60,256 nt of DNA from Flavobacteriales bacterium (GTDB taxonomy: Bacteria; Bacteroidota; Bacteroidia; Flavobacteriales_D; Sanyastnellaceae): assembly GCA_015665315.1 (NCBI GenBank), contig JADFAK010000027.1:1-60256 (forward strand), read 5' to 3'. The translations under genes were made by a program, and so were the position numbers. Numbering within the stretch: position 1 is the stretch's first letter; each line of letters starts with the position of its first letter. This document shows positions 6,001 to 60,061 of this stretch, one piece after another. Under the pieces are notes generated by a model. That model was not told the origin of the DNA. It worked only from the letters and a program-made list of their open reading frames with translations, and searched no databases.

Positions 6001-6694
6001 AATACTTAGAAGAAGAACTTCTGAGTGAGATATTGATGACACCACCTGTCGCATCTCCAATGTTCGCTGGGATACCTCCGGTAATTACCGAAATCTCTTC
6101 AACGGCCGACTTAGGTAACGCAGATGATCCACGAACCTTGATACCGTCTATATAGACCCAAGTACTATTACTACGTGCTCCACGAATAGAGATACCACCA
6201 TCATTTCCAGCATCCGACACACCAGCTACTGTTGTGGCAATCGAAGTCGCCGAACGACCAGGCATCTTATTAATGTCTTCACGAGAGACTGTTCCTCCTG
6301 AGGCACCACCGTCTTTATCAATCAATGGCGTGCTATAAGCAACGACCGTAACCTCATCCAGCTGGATACCAGCTTCGAGGCCTTGATCTAGAAACGTGAT
6401 TTTGTTTGAATTCACCTTTACACCCGAAATTTGCTTTGAAGCATATCCCACATACGAAAAGAGAACATCGTACGTTCCTGGGTCAATAGGTTTAACAGTG
6501 TACTTACCATCGAAGTCGGTAGTACCACCAGTGACCTGGTTTCCATTGAGGAAGACAACAACATTTACAAATGGCAGTAATTCTCCGGTGTTACTATCGG
6601 TTACAGTTCCCTTTAAGGTTCCTGAACCTACCTGAGCAAAGACTGGGGCAGAAAGTACGGCAAGAATAAGCGCACAGTAGAACTTTCTAAACAT
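3014..6694 (-). CDS. TonB-dependent outer-membrane receptor with carboxypeptidase-like N-terminal domain
   Basis: The protein has 1,226 residues. It has a signal peptide ending VFAQ (about residue 21), a carboxypeptidase D regulatory-like beta-sandwich (about 25-110, with FDGKYTVKPIDPGTYDV and VGYASKQ), a TonB plug (about 130-230, with ISIRGARSNSTWVYIDG and SAVEEISVITGGIPANIGDATGG) and a large 22-strand-type barrel whose last strand ends RLGIRLDF with the C-terminal Phe needed for outer-membrane insertion. The barrel holds the usual C-terminal receptor signature regions (LKPTKTIDYELGFQ). It should import or bind a bulky ligand at the outer membrane with TonB-ExbBD energy. No SusD follows; the neighbour is the large secreted protein 33 bases downstream. 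The substrate cannot be told from sequence. A weak promoter lies about 45 bases upstream. Confidence 0.95.
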   Translation of the reverse strand: MFRKFYCALILAVLSAPVFAQVGSGTLKGTVTDSNTGELLPFVNVVVFLNGNQVTGGTTDFDGKYTVKPIDPGTYDVLFSYVGYASKQISGVKVNSNKITFLDQGLEAGIQLDEVTVVAYSTPLIDKDGGASGGTVSREDINKMPGRSATSIATTVAGVSDAGNDGGISIRGARSNSTWVYIDGIKVRGSSALPKSAVEEISVITGGIPANIGDATGGVINISLRSSSSKYSGGIELITSGFRTGETARGLDRYGYNLIEGSLSGPLVFKKDENGEKERPLLGFFVSGNYTDIVDPRPTHGGVYRMKEDSRQALLDDPLRQNISDNGEINGALFNADFLNENDFEKVPTRLNVGAKSANLVAKIDVNTTKNMSLTFGATGAYNKANGFSYGNMLMNWENNLENTSFDWRVYGKFSQRFSSEEDEETSQASTLKNVFYSVLVDYSKNTARTQDDTHKDDFFKYGHVGKFDIHRQNSYTLNDAGNLYEHDGFEDTLVTFTPSEFNPELAAINNQYFGLFPLTPFDLQGENDDYYNSLSNVQTGNGLLNGQTIAGTYNLWNYQGNQGNAYAVFDNSQFRVSASGSADIGDHAVQLGFEYEQRKDRGFSLAPTGLWTLARLYANSHIKELDLSSGELTYPEGTIPYLTYDRLVGGNQFEFDYNLRESLGLDPNGSDFINTDALDPEAFSLDMFGADDLLNQGNNLVSYYGFDHHGNKVNGRPTLEDFFNETNERGNYTRPVGAFEPIYMSGFIMDKFSFDDIIFNVGVRVDRFDANQKVLKDPYVVGQALSAGEVSEIGGNDIPHPSNIGDDYVVYVDDPSNPANITGYRNGETWYNATGAEIENPALIASNNGFPTPLLVGGPDAPLTSDAFKDYDPQVNVMPRINFSFPISEEAVFFAHYDVLTQRPQSNNRFNPVDYLYLESRSSSLISNPNLKPTKTIDYELGFQQVLSKSSSLKISLFYRELRDMIQVRNFTGAYPRPYSAFGNLDFGTVKGLSLTYDLRRTGNIWIKAAYTLQFAEGTGSTTTTALALINAGLPNLRSIAPFNYDQRHRFNITMDYRYGEGSDYNGPILFDKQILKNTGVNFIANLGSGTPYTAARNAYPITGEISPSTDGDLNGSRLPWTFNMDMNIDRNFTLKFGEGETARTTNLNVYLWISNLLNSKNINSVYRYTGVSDDDGYLAAAQYQANIETQNSPDSFRNYYSMYVDNPFNLNPPRTIRLGIRLDF

Positions 6695-6740
6695 ACAGTT
6701 CGGTTTACGTTTTCAATAACTATTTCAAAACAAGCGGGCG

Positions 6741-6748
6741 TAAATATA
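6741..6748 (-). promoter_or_regulatory. Weak -7 box for the TonB receptor gene
   Basis: On the minus strand this reads TATATTTA, one mismatch from TAnnTTTG, about 46 bases before the receptor ATG. No TTG is found 19-21 bases further upstream, so the call is tentative. The rest of the gene-free stretch 6695-6976 holds only a 5-bp inverted repeat at 6944-6959 (AATTC/GAATT), too weak to call a terminator, and nothing else that I recognise. Confidence 0.3.
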
Positions 6749-6976
6749 GAAATTAATTCCACGATTGCCCTATGGTTCCCCAACCATTGTGTGTTTCAAT
6801 GAGTTGGAGTTTTGGCTAAAGGTTTATTCCTAATTTCTCAATCCTCAAAACTACGCTATAAGAGCGCTTTTCGAAAATTCTCGAAGGAAATTCCCGTGCA
6901 ATATTATACACGTCTAGGTTTTAAAAAGAGTAATTGAAGGCAAAATTCAGAATCGAATTCACCTGAAATTTGAATG

Positions 6977-7273
6977 CTAACGAAAATGTTTCTTTCTAAA
7001 GACTCGCTGAAAAAAGGTGCCACTCTTCCCCGTCTCTAAGCGTTTTGTCTTTTTCGCATTTTGCTTAAACCGCTTTTTTGTGCTTTTACCTTGGACTGTT
7101 CGATGGCGCTTTGTGCCGTTTTTATAGTTGTTGGCAATTTCTGCGCGATTGTCCCCTTTTTGTTCAATTTGATCCCTCCTCTGCTTCCGCGCACTTTTTT
7201 GCCCTTTTTGTGCATGTGCCGCGAAGGGAAGTGTAAAAACAACCAGTAACAGTATTTGTAAAAAACGCTTCAT
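6977..7273 (-). CDS. Small, strongly basic exported protein
   Basis: The protein has 98 residues and an evident signal peptide (MKRFLQILLLVVFTLPFAAHA, cleavage before QKG). The mature part of about 77 residues is roughly one third Lys plus Arg, with few acidic residues and no Cys, so its isoelectric point must be very high. It follows the YD-like gene by 42 bases on the same strand and is probably the last gene of that unit. A coding call is supported by the signal peptide and a typical ATG start. Such a polycation could sit on lipopolysaccharide or nucleic acid at the cell surface, but that is a guess; no family is recognised. Confidence 0.75.
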   Translation of the reverse strand: MKRFLQILLLVVFTLPFAAHAQKGQKSARKQRRDQIEQKGDNRAEIANNYKNGTKRHRTVQGKSTKKRFKQNAKKTKRLETGKSGTFFQRVFRKKHFR

Positions 7274-7315
7274 GAATGTCCTATATGTGTTTTTTCAACG
7301 CCATTCGGCAAATGT

Positions 7316-8176
7316 TTATTCGCAGTAGCTATAAAAAAGTTTCGAAATCACAATCTCATCCGATTTCTCCAGCCGTGTTAATATAGCCTCTGGTAAACCG
7401 TTGGCACTCAACAGTAATTCCTGTGAATGTACGAGGATTTCTCCTTCATAACGACGCAGCTTCTCAAGATTTCCCCAAGTGTCATATGAAAAAGTCTCTT
7501 TTGTGATCTTCCCGTTTTCATGCGTCATCCGTTCAGATATCCGCGCGTATTTGTCGTAGGCGTATCGGATTTGTTTTTTCTCAGCCGATATGATGAATTC
7601 AGATTCCATACCCACCAAAAATCCTTGACTATCCCATGTCCAAGTTTCCTTGAAATAAGGTAGCCCAATGTCGTTTCGAGATAGAACTATTTTGGTTGTG
7701 TCGTTTGGCCAACTCGTGTTTTTGGTTTCTGAGCGGACTTGCGTTTTTCGTAACTGTCCGTTTATGTCGGCCTTGAATCTTGTTGCCGTAGTCGCTGAGT
7801 CTGAATAGATTAAGGTGTCTGTGATAACCGAACGTGCATTGGTTTGAGTAGTACTCATCAATTTTTCATCCATATATCGATACCGAATATTAGTTGTGTC
7901 CGATCTGCCGAATAGCGAACTTATTTTCACATGTTCTCGCTTCTTTCCTGTGCTTTGATCGAATTGAAAAATTGAAACGTCACCCGTTTTGGAAATGCCC
8001 ATTCCATCAGGCTTAATCGAGTGTTCAACACGGATTTCGCAAATGCTATTCTTTTTGATGAAGGTGTTGTTGAAACGCCAATGATCCTCCAATGCATTGC
8101 CAACTGAGTTGTCCAAAAGCTGGGCAAAACAGGAGTTAACTAACATGAAAAATATGATTCCTATGGAATACCTCAC
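7316..8176 (-). CDS. Secreted protein with YD-like repeats
   Basis: The protein has 286 residues with a signal peptide ending NSCFAQ (cleavage about residue 19; a lipobox reading is possible but poor because position -2 is Asn). The start is GTG, sharing a GTGA overlap with the stop of the upstream DUF255 gene, so translation is likely coupled. The C-terminal half has two YD/RHS-like units ([15 protein letters not shown] and [18 protein letters not shown]), the short beta-hairpin repeat often seen in exported Bacteroidota proteins of unknown role. It is far too short to be an RHS toxin. It is probably periplasmic or surface exposed. Function unknown. Confidence 0.8.
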
Positions 8177-39925: not shown

Positions 39926-40479
39926 GATTTGAATACGCGTTCCTTGATTTTGATTGCTGGATTACCTTGGTAGATCATATAAGGTTCAAGGTTGGAGGTG
40001 GCAACACTATTTACGGTGAGAATACTGTGGGATTTGCATTTTACACCCGGACACACCACTGCATGCGCGCCCACCCAGGCTCCTTCTTCGAGTTCGATCC
40101 CGCGAACAACTAGGTCGAAGGCGACTTTTTTATAGTTGTGATTTCCACACAAAAGCATGGCTCCTTGCGAAATGCAGCAATTGTCACCTAGCTTGATCAT
40201 GGCCAAGTTATCGATCCATACTTCCTCGCCAATCCATACATTGTCGCCTATCTCCAAGTTCCAAGGATATTTAATATTGACGTTGGGCTTGATGACCACA
40301 CCTTTTCCAACTTTGGCACCAAACATTCGAAGAATAGAGATTTTTACCCCACCAAAAATGAACATCGCATTCTTGAAGAGTATCGAATTGATGGAATACC
40401 AAACGATTCGTTTGATCCTCCCGCCAGGTTGATACCAGTCGTTGTTGTATTGGCTTAGATCAGTTTTTAGTTGTTGCAT
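39922..40479 (-). CDS. WcaF-like hexapeptide acyltransferase
   Basis: The protein has 185 residues from the ATG at 40479; an upstream TTG would extend it into the neighbouring gene. It has a short amphipathic start (YNNDWYQPGGRIKR) and left-handed beta-helix repeats (VGKGVVIKPNVNIKYPWNLEIGDNVWIGEE, LGDNCCISQGAMLLCGNHN, GAWVGAHAVVCPGVKC), ending YQGNPAIKIKERVF. The plan matches the WcaF/colanic acid acetyltransferases that put acetyl groups on polysaccharide sugars. It overlaps the preceding glycosyltransferase by 20 bases. Confidence 0.9.
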   Translation of the reverse strand: MQQLKTDLSQYNNDWYQPGGRIKRIVWYSINSILFKNAMFIFGGVKISILRMFGAKVGKGVVIKPNVNIKYPWNLEIGDNVWIGEEVWIDNLAMIKLGDNCCISQGAMLLCGNHNYKKVAFDLVVRGIELEEGAWVGAHAVVCPGVKCKSHSILTVNSVATSNLEPYMIYQGNPAIKIKERVFKS

Positions 40480-51166: not shown

Positions 51167-52486
51167 TTATTCGGTGAAACTTAGGTGTGAAGGTAGGCCA
51201 AATCCACGATAGGCTTCTAATCCATATCGGTCGAAAAAGGACTTGCTATCGAGTGAGAATCCAGCATCCAATAATTCCACGAGTTTGTCTGGGGTCATGG
51301 CCGACACAGCGTCGAGCGAAGTATTTGCGTAAATGTTCTCTTTGAAACAAGCTGGGAAATAGAGCGTCTTCAGACCTAAAAATAGACGTTCAATATTGGC
51401 CGAAGAATAGACTGAAACAGCAATCTCACTTTTGACGAAGACTTGCAAACTTGGGATATCTTGAGGAACAATGTCGAATCGATCGGCTGGAAAATAGTTG
51501 CTGTATTCCCGATGAGCATTTTGGAATATTTCGGCCGACTCTTTTTCGCAAGGATGGAGATAGATGAGCAGTTTTTTACTAGAATTATCGGTAAGATAGT
51601 TGGCCAGCGTTTGCAAAAGGAGTTCCTCGCTTTCAAATTCACCCATCCCTGAAGCGAGTTCGCCACGTTCTTTTCTCCGCCAAACTCCGCTCGATATAAA
51701 TCCGATGGTGTCGACCGCTTCGGGAAGTGTTTTTCGGGGAGCTTTGAGCAGACGAGGGAAATTAAATGGGGGCAAGTTTCTCGTGCTTTCAACATACCAG
51801 TTTTCCTTCAGATTTTCCATTTCACCAGGCTGAAAAGGTGCCGTAAAAATGAATTCTGTTGAAACAAGGTGGTGATAGTAGGGCGTAATAATATTTGCCG
51901 AAGGCACACGAATTACCTTGCAGCCCTTTTTCATCAATGCCAAGCTCATCAAGTTACTATCGCGCTCGTACGAGTCGAACATCCACATGGAATGAATCCC
52001 CCTTTTTTTCGCAGCTCCTACCAAATGCATGATCTCCACACAGTCGGTTATTATCCCGGCATAAGTCCCACGTTTTCTTGAAGTCAAAGTCATGTAAAGT
52101 AGCCAAGGGGCCAATAACGCCAGCCCAATCAGCATGTTCAAGCGATTCAGGAAGCCCAAGCTAAATTCGAAATCCTCTCGACTCAAACAAAAATCAGGGG
52201 CCGCTTCATCGAGTGATTTTAAGTAGGTAATAGCCGAATCAAAATCCCTTCCTCCGCGGAATAATCCTATGCGATTGGTGGTTTCAGGAAGAGTTTGGTG
52301 GCTCGAGAAGATCATTTTTAGCGCTGCGCGCAAATAGCGAAAGCCGACCAACTTATCACTGTGGCTCGTAGCAGAAAGTCTGTAGCTATGGGCCGATCGC
52401 AAGGTTTCCCAACAAGCGGCGTATTCTGAACGCGCGCCCATAAGATGCGCCAACCGACAGCGAAGGAGTAAAAATGCGATGCTCAT
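51167..52486 (-). CDS. Unrecognised 439-residue protein; candidate pseudaminic acid transferase
   Basis: I do not recognise a named family. The N-terminal 110 residues are helical and basic; a membrane-associated helix (LNMLIGLALLAPWLLYMTL, about 116-134) follows. A Rossmann-like stretch (KKRGIHSMWMFDSYERDSN, about 160-178) precedes LLIYLHPCEKE (307-315) and IAVSVYSSANIERLFLGLKTLYF (about 356-378). The pair HP (311-312) and SS (361-362), about 50 residues apart, resembles the CMP-binding HP and SS/ST motifs of GT-B bacterial sialyltransferases and polysialyltransferases; the D/E-D/E-G motif is not evident. The gene starts five bases after pseI, the end of the nonulosonate pathway. A transferase using CMP-pseudaminic acid is my inference. 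It may instead be another capsule-type transferase. Confidence 0.75.
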   Translation of the reverse strand: MSIAFLLLRCRLAHLMGARSEYAACWETLRSAHSYRLSATSHSDKLVGFRYLRAALKMIFSSHQTLPETTNRIGLFRGGRDFDSAITYLKSLDEAAPDFCLSREDFEFSLGFLNRLNMLIGLALLAPWLLYMTLTSRKRGTYAGIITDCVEIMHLVGAAKKRGIHSMWMFDSYERDSNLMSLALMKKGCKVIRVPSANIITPYYHHLVSTEFIFTAPFQPGEMENLKENWYVESTRNLPPFNFPRLLKAPRKTLPEAVDTIGFISSGVWRRKERGELASGMGEFESEELLLQTLANYLTDNSSKKLLIYLHPCEKESAEIFQNAHREYSNYFPADRFDIVPQDIPSLQVFVKSEIAVSVYSSANIERLFLGLKTLYFPACFKENIYANTSLDAVSAMTPDKLVELLDAGFSLDSKSFFDRYGLEAYRGFGLPSHLSFTE

Positions 52487-52491
52487 TGTGC

Positions 52492-53550
52492 TTATTCTGC
52501 GATTAACGGCCAGTCCATGCGTGTTCCTTTTTCGCAGTCTTGTGAAAACGTCTTGCCCACGATTTCCTCCAAATGTTTGGGGTGCATGCCAAAGCCGGGG
52601 CGTACCGATCGCACGTTGGTTTTGGTGATTTTGTCACCAGCTTTCACCTCTTCGGCCACATAAAGGGACCGACTGAATTCACGTGAACGGGTCGCCTTTT
52701 CGGTGAGGTCGTAGTTCACTACGCCCAAACTGCTTTCGGCAGCTCGCACCTGATCTACCATGTCGGCAAATTCAGCGGGGTCCAAACTAAAACCAGCATC
52801 TGGGCCTCCCAAGGACTTGTCGAGGATAAAATGCTTTTCTATGATCGAACCTCCCAGTGCAACAGATACCGTAGGCACAACGGTTCCCGTCGTGTGATCC
52901 GAAAGTCCGGTTACAACATTGTAGCGCTCGGCCAATTCCCGGATCATGTTGAGGTTGGCCTCATGCACTGGCGCCGGATAGGACGACGTGCATTTCAATA
53001 ATGCGATGTCATGATTTCCTGCTTCCAAGCAGGTTGCAACTGCCAAGTCGATGTCATCTTTATTGGCAATCCCTGTCGAAATAATAATGGGCTTTCCTTT
53101 CGAAGCTGTCAAGCGGATCAAGGGAATATCGGTTATCTCGAAAGATGCAATTTTATAAGCAGGAGCGTCAAGTGATTCCAACAGGTCAACGGCGGTTGGA
53201 TCAAAAGGAGAGGAGAAACAAATCAGGCCCTCTTTCTCAGCCAATTCAAAGATATCTTTGTGCCATTCCCAAGGAAGAAATGCTTCTTCGTACAGGTCGA
53301 ATAGCTTGCGACCATCCCACACAGTGCCTTGTTTGATTACAAAATCCTTGCTATCCGTATCAAGTGTAATTGTGTCGGCACGGTAAGTTTGAAGTTTGAT
53401 GGCATCGGCACCGGCACGTTTGGCTGCACGCACGGTTTCCAGCGCTACGTCTTTCTGACCAGCGTGATTTGCCGACAACTCGGCGATAATGAAACATGGA
53501 GCTCCTCCGCCTATTTGTCGGCCTGCGATATTGAATTGTCTGTTGCTCAT
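52492..53550 (-). CDS. pseI: Pseudaminic acid synthase
   Basis: The protein has 352 residues. It condenses 2,4-diacetamido-2,4,6-trideoxy-L-altrose with phosphoenolpyruvate. It has the NeuB TIM barrel start FIIAELSANHAGQKDVALETVRAAKRAGADAIKLQTY, the metal and PEP sites around ISTGIANKDDIDLAV, LLKCTSSYPAPVHEANLN, LSDHTTGTVVP and IIEKHFILDKSLGGPDAGFSLDP, and a C-terminal SAF/antifreeze-like domain (about 285-350). The EITDIPLIR and LGGPDAGFSL forms fit PseI better than NeuB or LegI, and the neighbours support that. Confidence 0.94.
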   Translation of the reverse strand: MSNRQFNIAGRQIGGGAPCFIIAELSANHAGQKDVALETVRAAKRAGADAIKLQTYRADTITLDTDSKDFVIKQGTVWDGRKLFDLYEEAFLPWEWHKDIFELAEKEGLICFSSPFDPTAVDLLESLDAPAYKIASFEITDIPLIRLTASKGKPIIISTGIANKDDIDLAVATCLEAGNHDIALLKCTSSYPAPVHEANLNMIRELAERYNVVTGLSDHTTGTVVPTVSVALGGSIIEKHFILDKSLGGPDAGFSLDPAEFADMVDQVRAAESSLGVVNYDLTEKATRSREFSRSLYVAEEVKAGDKITKTNVRSVRPGFGMHPKHLEEIVGKTFSQDCEKGTRMDWPLIAE

Positions 53551-53978
53551 TTTTCTCCGTAAATCAAGGTGTCACCCTCCGTTTTTAGCAGTACCAGTCC
53601 GCAAAACTCGGCAATTTTTATACTAGGGACATTTTGTGCTTTTATTTCAGCCCTTACGGGCAAATGTTGAGCTTCTTTGATGAGTTGAACCATGCGCTTT
53701 CCCAATCCTTTTCCCCGCATATTCGGAGCGACATTCCAGCTGAGGGTAACACTGCCATCCTGTTCATCGGCCCGTACCATTCCCGCATCCACTTGGTCTA
53801 CTTGCAGGATGTAAATGCGTCGTGTATCCATGGACATACTCCGCTCAAACCACGACCTATGCGACGCCTCGTCCACTTCTCCAGTCTCGAAGCTGTTTTG
53901 TCGGGTGACGGGGTCATTTCTCCAATCAAGGAGGATTTTCCAATCACGTGCTTCGGCCCGACGGTAGGTCAATCCCAT
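53547..53978 (-). CDS. pseH: GNAT acetyltransferase of pseudaminic acid synthesis
   Basis: The protein has 143 residues, one GNAT domain. It begins LTYRRAEARDWKILLDWRNDPVTRQNS and has the acetyl-CoA loop NMRGKGLGKRMVQLI. Its place between pseG and pseI, overlapping both by a few bases, supports acetylation of the 4-amino group of the altrosamine intermediate. Assigned by position and motif. Confidence 0.85.
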   Translation of the reverse strand: MGLTYRRAEARDWKILLDWRNDPVTRQNSFETGEVDEASHRSWFERSMSMDTRRIYILQVDQVDAGMVRADEQDGSVTLSWNVAPNMRGKGLGKRMVQLIKEAQHLPVRAEIKAQNVPSIKIAEFCGLVLLKTEGDTLIYGEK

Positions 53979-54955
53979 GGCGTTAAAGTTTTATGAACGA
54001 TGTCCCTGATTCTTTCGGCACTGCGACCATCGACCAATTTCTGCTGATTGTGCAAATGTACTTCGATTGTTTGGGAGTCGGCAAGTGCATCGAGCGCACT
54101 GCGCAGGATCGTCTCGTCTAAGTCACGCAGGTCATTCAGGGGCTGCATGACATTTGCCTTGTGCAAACCCTTGAAAATCCCTCTCTGGTTCTCTACAAAA
54201 TAACCGCACGCAAATGGTGTTCGTCGCGCGCAAAGTTCCATGGAAATTGTACTAGCTGGAGCGATGGCCACTTGTGCTGCGTCGATCAAGGCGATCATTT
54301 GTGCGCTGGAAAGATTGTGGTGACACTGTACATTCGGCATGCGCGTGTGCAATAATTGTCCTTGGTAAGACCCGCCAAGAATCACGTTTAGTTGTGCGCT
54401 TGGTCGGATGGATCGCAGCAATGAAACGATTTTGAAACTCAGGTCTTCGGGATCGGCGCCGCCAATGCATAGGAGGATTTGGTCTTTTTCGCGCACCGGT
54501 CTATCCCTTTCCTTTTCGAAGAATTCTTTTCGGATAAGCGCGTAGTCGCTACCCACAAATACGGTTTTAGGGTCTTGTGAATAGGACGTTTTTTCCGCGC
54601 CAGGAGCGTGATTTATGATGGCATTGGCCTTGAAATTGGCGTGGAGATCATCAATGTAAATCGACTTAATTCCGGACGCATTCAGCAGGTCAAACCAGTG
54701 CGTTGTCGCTTCATAGCTATCAATTACAACCATGGAGTTTTTCGGGTCCGTGATGCTTTTGATAAGGCTCTCTATGTTGGGCGCTTCAAGGGTTTTTAGC
54801 CATGAAGGCAAATGTTTTTGAACGGACTCCGCATTTGGAATGGCCAGGAAATACTGAAAATCTGCGCCGCACAATTCGGCAAAAGCTAGAAGGCGATAGA
54901 AATGCCCCATTCCAACTTTCGGACCTAAGTTGCCGCACAGATAGATAGATTTCAC
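53969..54955 (-). CDS. pseG: UDP-2,4-diacetamido-2,4,6-trideoxy-beta-L-altropyranose hydrolase
   Basis: The protein has 328 residues from a GTG at 54955. It removes UDP from the altropyranose intermediate by a GT-B-like fold. The N-terminal GPKVGMGHFYRLLAFAELC holds the catalytic His, and the C-terminal half has LLCIGGADPEDLSFKIV and AIAPASTISMELCARRTPFACGYFVENQ, typical of PseG. The overlap with pseH and pseF is 4-10 bases. Confidence 0.92.
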   Translation of the reverse strand: MKSIYLCGNLGPKVGMGHFYRLLAFAELCGADFQYFLAIPNAESVQKHLPSWLKTLEAPNIESLIKSITDPKNSMVVIDSYEATTHWFDLLNASGIKSIYIDDLHANFKANAIINHAPGAEKTSYSQDPKTVFVGSDYALIRKEFFEKERDRPVREKDQILLCIGGADPEDLSFKIVSLLRSIRPSAQLNVILGGSYQGQLLHTRMPNVQCHHNLSSAQMIALIDAAQVAIAPASTISMELCARRTPFACGYFVENQRGIFKGLHKANVMQPLNDLRDLDETILRSALDALADSQTIEVHLHNQQKLVDGRSAERIRDIVHKTLTPWD

Positions 54956-55716
54956 TTTTGCTCTTCTTTCAAGGATTTCAGGTAGCCTTCGTTGCGTGTT
55001 ATGTCCTGATTTAGGTTGCGAATTTCTTCGTTTTCAAGATAGGCTTTTGTGTAGGTCATCCAATCGGAGTCCAAACCATGCTGTTCGATTAACTTGGTCA
55101 TAACCTGCATATCAATTGGTTCGTCGACACACAATCTCACGCGGTTGTAATCACCAGGAGAAGCATAATTCCCAGCCTTGAAAAGGTCGCCGCCATTGAA
55201 GTCTGAGTTGCGCTTGATAAACGGAGTCACGTGTTCTTTGTCCGAATCGAGTTGTGCCTCCTTCCATGCTTTCTCCAAAGCTGCAAACTTAAAAACCTCG
55301 ATGTCTTGTCCGTCGGGATAGGCCTCTACAAGCGTATTGGCGCAATAGTCGACATTCTGATCGAAAGCATACTGAATCACCTCGTCAATCAAAACCGGGT
55401 CGAGGAGAGGGCAATCAGATGTCACGCGTACTACCCATTCCGGATTATAGCTCTTCGCCGCTTGGTAGTATCGGTCTAGCACATTCGATTCACTACCTCG
55501 ACTTGAAGGAACTCCAAGTTTATCGCAGAGAGTTACGATTTCAGCATCTGCTTCAGAAGTGGTCGTGGCCACGTGAAAAACGTCGATTAACTTGGCCTGA
55601 CTTGCGCGATCGATGTGAATAGCGAGCAGGGATTTTCCCATGATTTCTTTAAAAACCTTGGCAGGTAATCTGGTTGAACCAGAGCGGGCTTGAGTAATAG
55701 CAAGAACTTTAGTCAT
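54952..55716 (-). CDS. pseF: CMP-pseudaminic acid cytidylyltransferase-type enzyme
   Basis: The protein has 254 residues from the ATG at 55716, which overlaps the aldo/keto reductase stop by four bases (a TTG six bases up is unneeded). Nucleotide-binding start AITQARSGSTRLPAKVFKEIMGKSLLAIHIDRA, then TSDCPLLDPVLIDEVI and RLCVDEPIDMQVM. That is the SpsF/PseF type of cytidylyltransferase. It activates pseudaminic acid with CTP. In this family assignment as PseF rather than a general SpsF rests on the neighbours. Confidence 0.88.
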   Translation of the reverse strand: MTKVLAITQARSGSTRLPAKVFKEIMGKSLLAIHIDRASQAKLIDVFHVATTTSEADAEIVTLCDKLGVPSSRGSESNVLDRYYQAAKSYNPEWVVRVTSDCPLLDPVLIDEVIQYAFDQNVDYCANTLVEAYPDGQDIEVFKFAALEKAWKEAQLDSDKEHVTPFIKRNSDFNGGDLFKAGNYASPGDYNRVRLCVDEPIDMQVMTKLIEQHGLDSDWMTYTKAYLENEEIRNLNQDITRNEGYLKSLKEEQK

Positions 55717-56582
55717 GACCAATTGGCTGGATTAAGTAGTGAAATATTTGAGATGCGAATAGCGTCGATTTGATCGATAGCTGCTTGCGGGACTTGGCTT
55801 GTATTTTCAGACCAAGTTATAATTTCTTCGAGTTGTTTGGACGAGTCGACGCCGAAAACTACACCGTCGGATTTACTTTGAAGTGCGTATGTGAGGACCA
55901 GTTGACCTATGGAGAGATCCAATGCATTCGCTATCGATTTTATTTCCTGAATTGCGGGCACCAAAGAATGGAGCTTGGCAGGAATCGTTGCTTCATCCTT
56001 AAAAAAGAGCCCCTGAAGAAAGGCCGATCGCGTTTGAATCTCCAGTCCGCTTGCCTGCGCGCGTAAGATCGCCTTTTCTCTGAGAGACGCGTTGTCAAAA
56101 GCATTGTAGGGCAATTGAGCGAGGGAGATTTCTTCCCTTGTGCTACAAAATTCAAGTTCTTCGTTGGAGTGCATGGAGACACCTAGCCTTTTTACCGACG
56201 GACTGTTCACGATGGTCAAGAGTTCATCTCTTCGATGGGCATGGCAGCTTTTGTAATCGGCGAGTCGGTGAAATGAAAGGCCGGCAAGGAAGTCGATGTG
56301 AAGTTCTGCTAGGAACTGACTTACTGCATCTTTTTGCAGGTCAACATTGGGGGCAAGTTTGGTGTAAACCTGCATGTCTTTTTTACCTCCTTGGGCAAAC
56401 CATGAACCAAGGACTTCGTGTGAAGTTCCGTAGGCCGCAGCTGTGTCCAGCGAACGAATGCCTGCGTCATAGGCACAATCGAGAATACGATGCGCTTCTT
56501 TTGCGGTAGGTTTTCCTTGGGTGTTGTTGATGCCATAATCAAGGCCCAGTTGGACGGTTCCGAGAATCAGCTTTGAGATCAT
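55713..56582 (-). CDS. Aldo/keto reductase within the pseudaminic acid operon
   Basis: The protein has 289 residues with an AKR TIM barrel: ILGTVQLGLDYGINNTQGKP at the start, IRSLDTAAAYGTSHEVLGSW (catalytic Asp and Tyr), VYTKLAPN (Lys region), GLSFHRLADY, and LAQLPYNAFDN. It is not part of the six-step Pse pathway and may modify a pathway intermediate, for example at C-8 or a side chain, or be a helper. The four-base overlaps with pseF and pseC show tight cotranscription. Confidence 0.9.
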   Translation of the reverse strand: MISKLILGTVQLGLDYGINNTQGKPTAKEAHRILDCAYDAGIRSLDTAAAYGTSHEVLGSWFAQGGKKDMQVYTKLAPNVDLQKDAVSQFLAELHIDFLAGLSFHRLADYKSCHAHRRDELLTIVNSPSVKRLGVSMHSNEELEFCSTREEISLAQLPYNAFDNASLREKAILRAQASGLEIQTRSAFLQGLFFKDEATIPAKLHSLVPAIQEIKSIANALDLSIGQLVLTYALQSKSDGVVFGVDSSKQLEEIITWSENTSQVPQAAIDQIDAIRISNISLLNPANWS

Positions 56583-57727
56583 TGGGCTACCTCCAATACT
56601 TTAGCAATAACAAAGTCTTGCTCTTCATTGGTGAGCGAAGGGAACATGGGCAAACTCAGGCATTGGGAGTAGTACAGCTCAGCGTTAGGGAAATCGCCTT
56701 TTGCGAAGCCTAAAGTTTGAAAGTAGGGGAGTAAGTTGAGCGGAATATAGTGTACTTGGGCAAATATGTTGTTGGCCCGCAAATGATCATATACCTCCTT
56801 GCGATTCTTGAGAAGCACCACGAATAAATGGTAGGCGTTATCGAAATTCTTGGGCTGACGTAATGGACTCACCGCCGTTTCGGCAAATGCTTGTGTATAG
56901 CGTTGAGCAATTTCTCGTCGGCGAAGAATACCTGCATCCGCTCTTTTTAGCTGTGAATTGCCGAGTGCACATTGGATATCCGTGATTCTGTAATTGTAGC
57001 CCAATTCCTGCATTTCGTAGTACCAGCTGCCATGATCTTCTTGCATGTTGTCTTTGGTAATGCCGTGCGATCGAAGTAGTCGCAAGCGCTTGGCCATGGC
57101 ATCATCGTTGGTCGTCACCATACCTCCTTCACCGCAGGCGATATGCTTGACAGGATGAAAAGAGAAAATAGTCATGTCGGCCAAGCTACTGTCTCCACAT
57201 TTGCGCGTAGCGCCCATAGAATCAATAAAACTACCCCCAGGAGCGTGGCAAGCATCTTCGATCAAGCCAAGGTTGTACTCATCGGCTAGTTGTCGGCAGC
57301 GCTCCATATCCACAGGCAAACCAGCCAAATCAACTGGGCTGAGGACTTTGTACTTTCCTCGGGGAGTTATTTTAAGCATGGATTCCACTTGATCGAGGTC
57401 GATCAATCCAGTGGTCGGATCGATATCGGCCATTTCCACTTGAGCACCGCAATAAAGCGCGGCATTGGCCGTAGCAGCAAAAGTTATCGGAGTCGTTATA
57501 ATCGTGTCTCCCGGTCCGCAATCAAGCGTGAGGTAAGCCAAGTGCAAAGCCGTCGTGCCGTTATTGACAGCAACCGCATGTTTGGCTCCTACGTATTGGG
57601 CAAAATTCTTTTCGAATTCGGCAATTTGTGGACCTTGAGTGAGGAAGTCGTGTTGTAAAGCTGTGGCCACAGCGTCCAGGTCGTCTTGCGTGATTTCCTG
57701 TCGGCCATACGGAATCGCTTTAGGCAT
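56579..57727 (-). CDS. pseC: UDP-4-amino-4,6-dideoxy-N-acetyl-beta-L-altrosamine transaminase
   Basis: The protein has 382 residues from the ATG at 57727 (overlaps pseB by eight bases). Fold type I sugar aminotransferase: AVNNGTTALHLAYL near 54-67, LIEDACHAPGGSF (Asp for the PLP nitrogen) and the cofactor lysine in IFSFHPVKHIACGEGGMV (Lys194). Uses glutamate to aminate the 4-keto sugar made by PseB. The neighbouring genes support PseC among DegT/DnrJ relatives. Confidence 0.93.
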   Translation of the reverse strand: MPKAIPYGRQEITQDDLDAVATALQHDFLTQGPQIAEFEKNFAQYVGAKHAVAVNNGTTALHLAYLTLDCGPGDTIITTPITFAATANAALYCGAQVEMADIDPTTGLIDLDQVESMLKITPRGKYKVLSPVDLAGLPVDMERCRQLADEYNLGLIEDACHAPGGSFIDSMGATRKCGDSSLADMTIFSFHPVKHIACGEGGMVTTNDDAMAKRLRLLRSHGITKDNMQEDHGSWYYEMQELGYNYRITDIQCALGNSQLKRADAGILRRREIAQRYTQAFAETAVSPLRQPKNFDNAYHLFVVLLKNRKEVYDHLRANNIFAQVHYIPLNLLPYFQTLGFAKGDFPNAELYYSQCLSLPMFPSLTNEEQDFVIAKVLEVAQ

Positions 57728-58751
57728 GCGCTTCAACTTTGAAGTTGGGGTCTACATGCTCACGAATGAGGCTTCTAATTTCTTCAACTCCCACCCACTG
57801 ATCGTTGGTAGCACTGTTGTAGTTGAATCCTTCTTTTACCTTCGTTGCTCCCATTTTCTCAATGAAGTCATCGAGGTTCCAAACTGGAGATTGCGGCAGA
57901 ATGGCGTAGTACTTTCCGAGATCGTAGGTCGTGTACGAATCGGGTGAAGTGATCATTTCTTCGTGCACTTTCTCACCTGGGCGGATGCCAATCACCTTTT
58001 GCTCGCAATTAGGACCTACGGCCTCTGCGACGTCGGTAATGAGGTATGAAGGGATTTTCGGAACGAATATTTCACCACCCCAAGCATTGGCCATCGCATG
58101 GAAAACCATGTCAACACCCCCTTGAAGTGATATATTGAATCGCGTCATTTTCGGATCAGTGATAGGCAATACACCTTCGTCTCTTTTATTCAAGAAGAAA
58201 GGAATAACCGAGCCATTGGATCCCATAACGTTGCCATACCGAACAACTGAAAGTTTGATTTCGTTCCAACCTTTGATGTTGTTGGCAGCAATGAATAGCT
58301 TATCAGAACACAATTTTGTCGCTCCGTATAAGTTGATAGGGGCCGCAGCTTTATCTGTAGATAGTGCTACAACATTCTTAACTCCCGTTTCGAAACAAGC
58401 ATTCACCACGTTTTCGGCACCGAGTACATTGGTTTTTACACATTCCATTGGGTTGTATTCGGCAATGTGAACGTGTTTCATAGCTGCTGCGTGGATGACA
58501 AATTCGATTCCCTGCATGGCGCGCACGAGTCGGTCATAGTCTCTTACATCACCGACGAAATAACGTATGGCTTTGTATTCTTTATCAGACCACTTGAGAT
58601 TCATCTGATATTGCTTCTGCTCGTCACGACTAAAAATCACGAGACGTTTGACCTTGGGCCAGCGAGTTAGAATTTCTTCTGTGAGTTTCTGTCCAAGGGA
58701 TCCAGTGCCGCCGGTAATAAGTACCGACTTACCATTGAGGTCAAGGTTCAT
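57720..58751 (-). CDS. pseB: UDP-N-acetylglucosamine 4,6-dehydratase (inverting)
   Basis: The protein has 343 residues. It turns UDP-GlcNAc into UDP-2-acetamido-2,6-dideoxy-beta-L-arabino-hexos-4-ulose, the first step of pseudaminic acid synthesis. The NAD(P) loop is TGGTGSLG (13-20), and the catalytic region STDKAAAPINLYGATK (131-146) has the PseB/FlaA1 form rather than the epimerase form. The C-terminal part (GIRPGEKVHEEMI) is typical. First gene after its own -7 box, so it starts the Pse unit. Confidence 0.95.
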   Translation of the reverse strand: MNLDLNGKSVLITGGTGSLGQKLTEEILTRWPKVKRLVIFSRDEQKQYQMNLKWSDKEYKAIRYFVGDVRDYDRLVRAMQGIEFVIHAAAMKHVHIAEYNPMECVKTNVLGAENVVNACFETGVKNVVALSTDKAAAPINLYGATKLCSDKLFIAANNIKGWNEIKLSVVRYGNVMGSNGSVIPFFLNKRDEGVLPITDPKMTRFNISLQGGVDMVFHAMANAWGGEIFVPKIPSYLITDVAEAVGPNCEQKVIGIRPGEKVHEEMITSPDSYTTYDLGKYYAILPQSPVWNLDDFIEKMGATKVKEGFNYNSATNDQWVGVEEIRSLIREHVDPNFKVEAHA

Positions 58752-58816: not shown

Positions 58817-60061
58817 CTATAGATTGATGACTCCGGCCGCAACACAGTTCAAAGTATGTGGGTCGATAAGGATAAATGCCCCCGTAGTCCGGTTGCGGGA
58901 ATAGGGATCTACGAATAAGGGTGATGCCGTTTTAATGGACACGCGCGCAATGTCATTGGTGCTTATAGCTAGATCTTCTTGATCCCTATGAAGGGTGTTG
59001 ATATCAATTTTATAGCGCACATCTTGGATCAATGCTTTGACTTCTCTTGAAGTATGCTTGAGAATATACTTGGTCCGCGCGACATTTGGTGAGTTGCCAA
59101 GCCAACAGATAAGGGCCTCAAATTGTTGTAATTCTTGCGGCTGGTTGTTAATACGCGCGAGCATATCACCTCGTCCTACGTCGATGTCGTCTTGAAGTTC
59201 AATTGCGACAGACATGGGAGGAAAGGCAACTTCGACTTCTTTTCCAGCAATTGAAATACGTGAAATAGTAGACTCCAATCCAGATGGAAGAGCCACAATG
59301 CGGTCGCCTTTCTTAAAAATGCCACCAGCCACGCTACCAGCTACTGCCCGGAAATCATGGAATTGATCGCTAGTTGGCCGAATAACCGTCTGCACTGGAA
59401 AGCGACAGTCCACCAAGTTATTATCCGAACTGATATAGCAGTTTTCGAGGGTATATAGCAAGGTAGCGCCATCGTACCAAGGCATGTTTTGACTTTTGTC
59501 GACGACATTGTCACCGTGCAAAGCACTCACGGGGACGAATTGAATATCGATGCTTTCAAGCTTGGCGGCAAAATTTCTGTAATTGGCAACTATTTGGTCG
59601 TACACCGATTGATCATGATTCACGAGGTCCATCTTATTGACGCACACGACCACATGTTGGATTTGCAACATGGAAGCAATAAAACTATGTCGTTGGGTCT
59701 GCTCCGTGAGACCGTTTCGTGCGTCCACAATAATCAATGCTATGTCGGCCGTTGAGGCCCCAGTGACCATGTTTCGGGTATACTGGATATGTCCTGGACA
59801 ATCGGCCACGATAAACTTACGCTTGGGCGTAGCAAAGTATCTGTAAGCCACGTCGATGGTAATCCCTTGTTCGCGCTCGTCCTTCAGACCATCAGTCAAA
59901 TAGGCAAGGTGAAGTGTATCGAGGCCTTTTCGTTCGGATTCCAAGGTGACCCGATCAACTTGATCTTGAAAGAGTGACTTTGAGTCGTAAAGGAGTCGGC
60001 CAATAAGCGTGCTTTTTCCGTCATCAACACTACCTGCGGTTATAAATCGAACTAAGTCCAT
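58817..60061 (-). CDS. cysN: Sulfate adenylyltransferase, GTPase subunit
   Basis: The protein has 414 residues. It is an EF-Tu-like GTPase that drives CysD to make adenosine phosphosulfate. Motifs: P-loop GSVDDGKST (10-18), DCPGH (87-91), NKMD (142-145), followed by beta-barrel domains. No APS kinase domain is fused to the C-terminus (unlike CysNC). Its start overlaps the cysD stop by one base (TGATG). The APS formed may feed cysteine synthesis or sulfation. Confidence 0.97.
   Translation of the reverse strand: MDLVRFITAGSVDDGKSTLIGRLLYDSKSLFQDQVDRVTLESERKGLDTLHLAYLTDGLKDEREQGITIDVAYRYFATPKRKFIVADCPGHIQYTRNMVTGASTADIALIIVDARNGLTEQTQRHSFIASMLQIQHVVVCVNKMDLVNHDQSVYDQIVANYRNFAAKLESIDIQFVPVSALHGDNVVDKSQNMPWYDGATLLYTLENCYISSDNNLVDCRFPVQTVIRPTSDQFHDFRAVAGSVAGGIFKKGDRIVALPSGLESTISRISIAGKEVEVAFPPMSVAIELQDDIDVGRGDMLARINNQPQELQQFEALICWLGNSPNVARTKYILKHTSREVKALIQDVRYKIDINTLHRDQEDLAISTNDIARVSIKTASPLFVDPYSRNRTTGAFILIDPHTLNCVAAGVINL

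Follow-up and report, generated by a model that had tools for sequence, protein, structure and literature searches.

A candidate family of GT-B CMP-nonulosonic acid transferases linked to several types of nonulosonic acid locus in Flavobacteriales

Introduction

We describe a family of proteins that we interpret, with a probability of about 0.78, as new GT-B CMP-nonulosonic acid (CMP-NulO) transferases, for which the known pseudaminic acid (Pse) transferase GtfS is a precedent. The member considered in detail is encoded at the end of a pse operon in the window analysed, the whole of a 60,256-nucleotide stretch of DNA from a Flavobacteriales bacterium (GenBank assembly GCA_015665315.1, contig JADFAK010000027.1), and its predicted activity is, very probably, to attach Pse to a surface glycan. 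The strongest evidence for a NulO transferase is genomic linkage. A first-pass annotation had suggested that the protein may be a new kind of Pse transferase, distantly related to the bacterial GT-B transferases that use CMP-sialic acid. The distant relationship is supported by a predicted GT-B fold, conserved HP and S[ST] motifs spaced much as in the Mannheimia polysialyltransferase (MhPST), and repeated linkage to NulO genes. The term "new kind" holds for the family and not for the activity, because GtfS, encoded at the equivalent place, is already known to transfer Pse.

Little is known of the transferases for Pse and related acids, although they complete a pathway that is widespread; those named in the portions of the literature covered are GtfS, the corresponding Leg transferase, KpsS1 (GT118) and the Maf proteins. 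Searches of the open-licence PMC literature returned neither a named description of the present family, which itself has no name to search for, nor an assayed member.

Results

An ORF following pseI in a pse operon

The 439-codon ORF is read on the minus strand from an ATG at 52486 to 51167, and five bases separate the pseI stop codon from this ATG, as the first-pass annotation had placed it; the gene occurs once in its own 4.6-Mb assembly (Table 1). That the product fits no recognised family was borne out by profile searches. No Pfam family was matched at E <= 10, including PF07388 (GT38), PF07922 (GT52), PF05159, Epimerase_2 and Maf-type models, and the top NCBIfam model, TIGR04441 (LA_1612 family, putative O-antigen biosynthesis), scored 13.4 bits, far under its cut-off of 150. 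A phmmer search of PDB sequences gave a single chance-level match (E 0.39). The genome as a whole contains no match to PF05159, PF07388 or PF01973; the last, listed as MptE-like, we take to be the model for Maf flagellin NulO transferases, and its control matches fell only in archaea. A GT52 search of the genome was likewise negative but uninformative, its control having matched nowhere.

The operon had been proposed to encode a full CMP-Pse pathway. Of its products, PseB, PseC and PseI indeed exceed the cut-offs of their NCBIfam models, which the candidates for PseG, PseH and PseF do not reach; the PseH candidate passes Pfam GNAT models and the PseF candidate passes CTP_transf_3 (PF02348; 100.8 bits, cut-off 22.6). 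An aldo/keto-reductase-like gene lies between pseC and the pseF candidate, and the sister genome (L031) likewise has one ahead of its pseF homologue. Adjoining pseB is a 414-residue GTPase (58817-60061) that presumably resembles the sulfate adenylyltransferase subunit CysN, and glycan sulfation is possible given this neighbour. The remaining glycosyltransferase genes had been regarded as ordinary, and the four that were checked, all located from 40 kb onwards (at 40460, 44431, 47992 and 49958), fit Pfam group-1 (GT4-type) models.

Table 1. Features of the candidate gene and of the adjoining pse operon (window coordinates; residue numbers refer to the 439-residue protein)
Feature	Position	Strand	Basis
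Candidate GT-B CMP-nonulosonic (pseudaminic) acid transferase, 439 aa	51167..52486	-	ORF, predicted fold, motifs, linkage
C-terminal Rossmann-like domain, residues 252-432, presumed to bind CMP-sugar	51191..51733	-	pLDDT 90.8, pTM 0.88
SS motif, residues 361-362	51401..51406	-	between strand 355-358 and helix 362-369
HP motif, residues 311-312	51551..51556	-	54/54 members; directly after beta strand 305-309
SSGVWRR, residues 265-271	51674..51694	-	S265 and R271 54/54; W269 53/54
Hydrophobic helix in N-terminal half, residues 112-135	52082..52153	-	model and hydropathy
pseI, pseudaminic acid synthase	52492..53550	-	TIGR03586, 498.3 bits (cut-off 340.25)
pseH candidate (GNAT)	53547..53978	-	TIGR03585, 33.5 bits (under cut-off 93.1); Pfam Acetyltransf_3
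pseG candidate	53969..54955	-	TIGR03590, 135.3 bits (under cut-off 153.55)
pseF candidate (cytidylyltransferase)	54952..55722	-	TIGR03584, 30 bits (under cut-off 205.7)
Aldo/keto-reductase-like gene within the operon	55713..56582	-	NCBIfam KidO model, 60.6 bits (under cut-off 244)
pseC	56579..57736	-	TIGR03588, 484.7 bits (cut-off 423.5)
pseB	57720..58751	-	TIGR03589, 491.3 bits (cut-off 407.75)

Distribution and conserved residues of the family

Members of the family were present in 46 of 200 genomes, the source genome included. Within the order, 50 of 399 genomes matched a family profile, some few partially or weakly; within the phylum, four of 395 did so, namely the source genome, one of its family and two with weak matches; the plasmids searched gave no match. 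Thirteen named metagenome-assembled contigs also bear the family, eight of them labelled Flavobacteriales, one each Crocinitomicaceae, Cryomorphaceae, Bacteroidetes and Bacteroidia, and the remaining one Chryseobacterium gleum. The nearest relative of the window protein is 54% identical to it, and the other 28 sequences of a 30-row alignment are 18-26% identical. A profile of 30 members retrieved no convincing sequence relative among solved structures (best E 0.079, a sigma factor).

Conservation was assessed in a 54-member alignment comprising the window protein, sequences from 51 regions described below and two later finds, with identities down to 18%. Across this divergence S265, R271, E222, E287, H311, P312, E314, Y328 and F350 are invariant (54/54), and E366, R367, G371 and K373 nearly so. 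The HP and SS motifs lie where the first-pass annotation had located them, in LLIYLHP (residues 311-312) and SVYSS (361-362); the serine/threonine pair is retained in 52 of the 53 members with letters at that place, the exception (L041) reading SA. HP occurs once in the protein and S[ST] six times, and HP followed by S[ST] at 35-65 residues arose in 12.8% of 20,000 shuffles of the sequence. We therefore discarded the pair as evidence by itself: motifs alone prove little, and weight is placed on their conservation. The annotation had rightly doubted that the third motif known from sialyltransferases, D/E-D/E-G, was present. The pattern [DE][DE]G is missing from the window protein and is found in at most seven of the 54 members at any one alignment place. 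Acidic positions conserved in the N-terminal half, besides E222, are D176 (48/54, with E in three more) and E151 (47/54).

The hydrophobic helix at residues 112-135, whose best 19-residue hydropathy is 1.78 in the window protein and up to 2.95 in relatives, hints at membrane contact of the window protein. As a family-wide trait a membrane helix was rejected, a mean hydropathy of 1.6 being reached in only 21 of the 54 members. Where Pfam and NCBIfam name nothing, the family can be annotated by the combination of SxGxWxR, HPxE and S[ST]xxxERLxxGxK.

Predicted fold

An AlphaFold2 model computed from the window protein and 13 relatives from the named contigs (pLDDT 86.4, pTM 0.85; first 60 residues helical) confidently predicts a GT-B fold. 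The fold counts among the evidence for the distant GT-B relative suggested in the first-pass annotation. A polysialyltransferase ranks third for the C-terminal domain, but the whole model is led by UDP-GlcNAc 2-epimerases and by SPY and OGT. In VIA-align, the top match of the whole model is the epimerase MnaA (5enz; Z 15.6, rmsd 4.4, 285 residues aligned across residues 70-426), followed by GT-B transferases such as BshA (Z 14.8) and TarM (Z 14.5), with NeuC at Z 13.7; Foldseek returned SPY, OGT, TarL, TagF and epimerases. With the C-terminal domain as query, Foldseek placed the bacterial polysialyltransferase with CDP (5wcn) third (E 9.8e-5, 17% identity), outranked by two SPY chains and followed by TagF and TarL. 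The VIA-align top match of this domain was HMW1C (3q3i; Z 13.0, rmsd 3.6, 156 residues aligned), and its 50 best rows comprised UDP- and GDP-sugar transferases, epimerases, TagF (Z 11.4) and the Kdo transferase WaaA (Z 10.9). Whether queried with the whole model or with the domain, VIA-align names no sialyltransferase in its top 50 rows, which excludes nothing. In the model, H311 and S361 are placed where the nucleotide site of a Rossmann-like domain is expected, the serine pair standing at the N-terminal end of the helix.

Linkage to NulO synthesis genes

Besides the window, 54 places matched the family, and the neighbourhoods of 51 were read, leaving out a short fragment (G062:C79) and the two pieces of G021:C34, one with an internal stop. 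Neighbouring ORFs were called mechanically from the earliest start, so that overlaps are approximate. A NulO synthase of the NeuB family, a KDN-9-phosphatase-like gene, or both, lie within 3 kb in 30 of the 51 regions: 15 have a short NeuB, 11 NeuB with a HAD phosphatase, three the phosphatase alone and one, from the sister genome, PseI; the other 21 have neither NeuB nor the phosphatase. As the regions were selected for containing a family member, it is the contrast between genes alone that is informative. NeuB or the phosphatase stands directly upstream on the same strand of 29 of 50 family genes, as against, within these regions, six of 491 other ORFs of at least 200 residues and none of 33 GT4 homologues, counts that overstate significance because the relatives are phylogenetically dependent. 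Gaps to the upstream gene are within 15 bases in 25 of the 29 cases, many being short overlaps. The direct order of pseI followed by the family gene occurs in the source genome and in the one other genome found of its genus, which carries the 54% identical relative.

On a tree of the family, NulO linkage appears on many deep branches: the clade of the window, those of L032, L051, L074 and L041, and several short-NeuB clades. Regions lacking NulO neighbours include whole clades, one of which adjoins genes resembling Gfo/Idh oxidoreductases, hexapeptide acyltransferases and DegT aminotransferases (assigned by eye and from weak PseC matches), as well as a second paralogue in one genus. Such members may use another donor, or their pathway may be encoded elsewhere.

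The linkage was repeated in further full-length members outside these 51 regions, a test that left aside G067 and matches under 35 bits: NeuB or the phosphatase lies directly upstream in four of four. In two of them (G632 and G710, family f9; G632 shares its genus with G143, which is already in the set) the order is cytidylyltransferase, NeuB, one further ORF, phosphatase and family gene, and in the other two (L131 and L133) a short NeuB directly precedes the family gene. Matches at the rim of the family or outside it vary in setting. One of 426 residues (G421) has a cytidylyltransferase-like gene and no recognised NeuB in 20 kb; one of 470 residues (G300) lies closer to NF046086 (35.1 bits), and PseI is encoded some 2.5 kb upstream of it. 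A third match, G789, was rejected as a member, being another kind of protein without NeuB.

The identity of the linked genes was examined by scanning single representatives. The L033 phosphatase scores above the thresholds of the KDN-9-phosphatase model NF058599 (234.9 bits, cut-off 180) and of the YrbI/KdsC (Kdo-8-phosphatase) subfamily model TIGR01670 (132.1 bits, cut-off 106.95); with the KdsC equivalog it scores 119.9 bits, under the cut-off of 208. The short NeuB of L039 and its 194-residue cytidylyltransferase pass their Pfam cut-offs.

At the level of whole genomes, NeuB (E < 1e-15) was found in 41 of 42 family-bearing and three of 73 other genomes, among the rows listed and assuming that G000-G114 all belong to family f1. 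This association is weakened by second NeuB copies in five regions (L140-L144), read in genomes of regions without NulO neighbours or in the source genome. They lie among genes of various kinds, including peptidase-, IspD- and aminotransferase-like ones, and the profile used recognised no cytidylyltransferase near them, so the presence of NeuB alone is no proof of a NulO pathway. One of these copies belongs to the source genome (contig C76, L141:7214-8266), where it stands beside aminotransferase, dehydrogenase and DUF4910 genes, no cytidylyltransferase being recognised nearby.

A short NeuB of 235-270 residues accompanies a cytidylyltransferase of 182-196 residues in L039 (4989-8142), L040, L043-L046, L048, L050, L055, L059, L060 and L062, perhaps an undescribed NulO pathway; the L039 NeuB covers positions 52-233 of the 241-position profile, and its locus also holds asparagine-synthase-like, HisH-like and HisF-like genes, as judged by eye. 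A 554-residue protein (L041:12256-13917) matched by both the NeuB and the cytidylyltransferase profiles is perhaps a fusion of two NulO steps. Adjoining the family gene of L051 is a 463-residue protein (6513-7901) that itself carries HP and an SVYST stretch and matches nothing in NCBIfam at E <= 0.01, and weak profile matches to ORFs of 453-489 residues elsewhere suggest a second HP/ST family.

Discussion

Relation to known transferases

The Mannheimia polysialyltransferase of GT38 (5wcn) resembles the window protein in its GT-B fold, its HP motif and a following S-S/T pair, 48-49 residues on in MhPST (H291 to S339/T340, in the available sections of PMC5517516) and 50-51 in the window protein (H311 to S361/S362). 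The two are 17% identical over 171 alignment columns. The window protein differs in having neither a PF07388 match nor D/E-D/E-G, and the synthases linked to its family are PseI and other NeuB types.

A counterpart by gene position is GtfS of Tannerella forsythia (Tanf_01245; 445 aa), a Pse5Am7Gra transferase whose deletion removes Pse5Am7Gra (PMC6120980 and PMC6388019, as far as these were accessible). By the same accounts GtfS follows pseI as the next locus tag of a pse cluster, is of GT-B type, has an HP motif and comes from Bacteroidota, all as for the window protein; unlike it, GtfS reportedly has D/E-D/E-G as well as DXD, a comparison made by description only. The pse gene order in G385 differs from that of the GtfS cluster.

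WbbB and KpsC are GT-B enzymes, and GT118 presumably belongs to PF05159. KpsS1, described in the accessible part of PMC12887879 as a retaining Pse transferase that defines GT118, uses CMP-Pse and is related to WbbB and KpsC, whereas the window protein has no match to Capsule_synth (PF05159). The CDP-polyol transferases TagF and TarL share the GT-B fold, a cytidine-nucleotide donor and the Foldseek matches to the C-terminal domain, and differ in that the window protein has no Pfam match.

The surface carbohydrate proteins of NF046086 (BFO_1060 family) and TIGR04396 have HPxE and TTxLE in places comparable to those of the window family. NF046086 was rejected as the direct family of the window protein, which is not listed by this model at E <= 1 (family cut-off 200 bits), and the model has no match in the source genome. 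A weak profile link exists, with six of 30 family members at E <= 0.1 (best E 3.7e-4) and an hhalign probability of 66.9 (E 5.2e-5, 275 columns, 7% identity), so that on sequence profiles the two perhaps share one superfamily. In five of 10 regions read, the NF046086 gene lies directly beside pseB (L103-L106, genomes of the same phylum) or directly after pseI (L109, of the same class as the window), and these proteins are likely NulO transferases of another branch; in L107 the gene is beside a PseC-like ORF, and in the other four regions, over the stretch covered, it is farther from pse-like genes or without them.

Alternative readings

A GT-B fold alone cannot separate a CMP donor from other donors, and the protein could be a transferase that acts at this locus with a UDP-, GDP- or CDP-linked sugar or polyol as donor, the linkage then reflecting the clustering of polysaccharide genes. 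Such a donor would suit the 21 of 51 regions not near a NulO synthase, the clade with Gfo/Idh-, hexapeptide- and DegT-like genes, and the fold matches to SPY (GDP-fucose), OGT, TagF and TarL. We nevertheless consider it unlikely, given that 29 of 50 family genes but none of 33 GT4 homologues stand immediately after NeuB or the phosphatase, that the linkage persists across the tree as the neighbouring pathway changes, and that all four further full-length members repeat it.

That the L033 phosphatase scores far higher as a KDN-9-phosphatase than as KdsC, that the synthase is of the NeuB type and that PF05159 is not matched make a beta-Kdo-type transferase (GT99-, GT107- or GT140-like) very improbable, even though that phosphatase passes TIGR01670, WaaA is among the matches to the C-terminal domain, and HP is conserved in beta-Kdo transferases as it is in sialyltransferases (available sections of PMC5517516). 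Still less can be said for a NeuC- or PseG-like enzyme of NulO synthesis, an epimerase or hydrolase of sugar nucleotides with a GT-B fold, in place of a transferase. The operon already has a PseG candidate, Epimerase_2 is not matched at E <= 10, and to our knowledge KDN synthesis needs no such epimerase. The leading fold matches are UDP-GlcNAc 2-epimerases, with NeuC among the matches, but MhPST itself also finds such epimerases in DALI (PMC5517516, in the same sections).

Proposed mechanism and implications

The reading that we prefer, a CMP-NulO transferase, draws on the fact that the linked pathway changes (Pse, KDN-like, short-NeuB) while the candidate stays, which leaves a CMP-NulO product as the simplest common factor. 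Because the family follows several NulO types, "CMP-NulO transferase" is a better name for it than "Pse transferase", except in the genus of the window, where Pse is the likely donor because the gene ends a Pse operon in both genomes seen. The family would comprise CMP-NulO transferases of Crocinitomicaceae and neighbouring Flavobacteriales, and the window protein would be a GT-B transferase taking CMP-Pse from the operon in front of it and adding Pse to a growing glycan, probably lipid-linked and at the inner face of the membrane.

In the Mannheimia polysialyltransferase, according to the accessible part of its description, the CDP phosphates are held by H291 together with S339/T340, P292 forms part of the pocket for cytosine, a contact between R259 and the donor sugar is possible, and E153, within D/E-D/E-G, acts as the base (PMC5517516); HP mutants show a higher Km for CMP-Neu5Ac (PMC2169525, likewise in part). 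By analogy, H311 and S361/S362 would hold the CMP phosphate, P312 would pack on the cytosine and R271 may contact the donor sugar. The catalytic base must be another residue, D/E-D/E-G being absent, and would be an acidic residue of the N-terminal domain, for which E151, D176 and E222 are candidates.

More broadly, though with less assurance than we attach to the activity itself, we lean towards an unnumbered GT-B family of Flavobacteriales that dispenses with D/E-D/E-G and serves at least three NulO chemistries (Pse, KDN-like and shortened-NeuB), its fold having been retuned for each sugar. A family that stands beside Pse, KDN-like and short-NeuB pathways would offer a panel of enzymes for testing donor specificity and for glycan synthesis.
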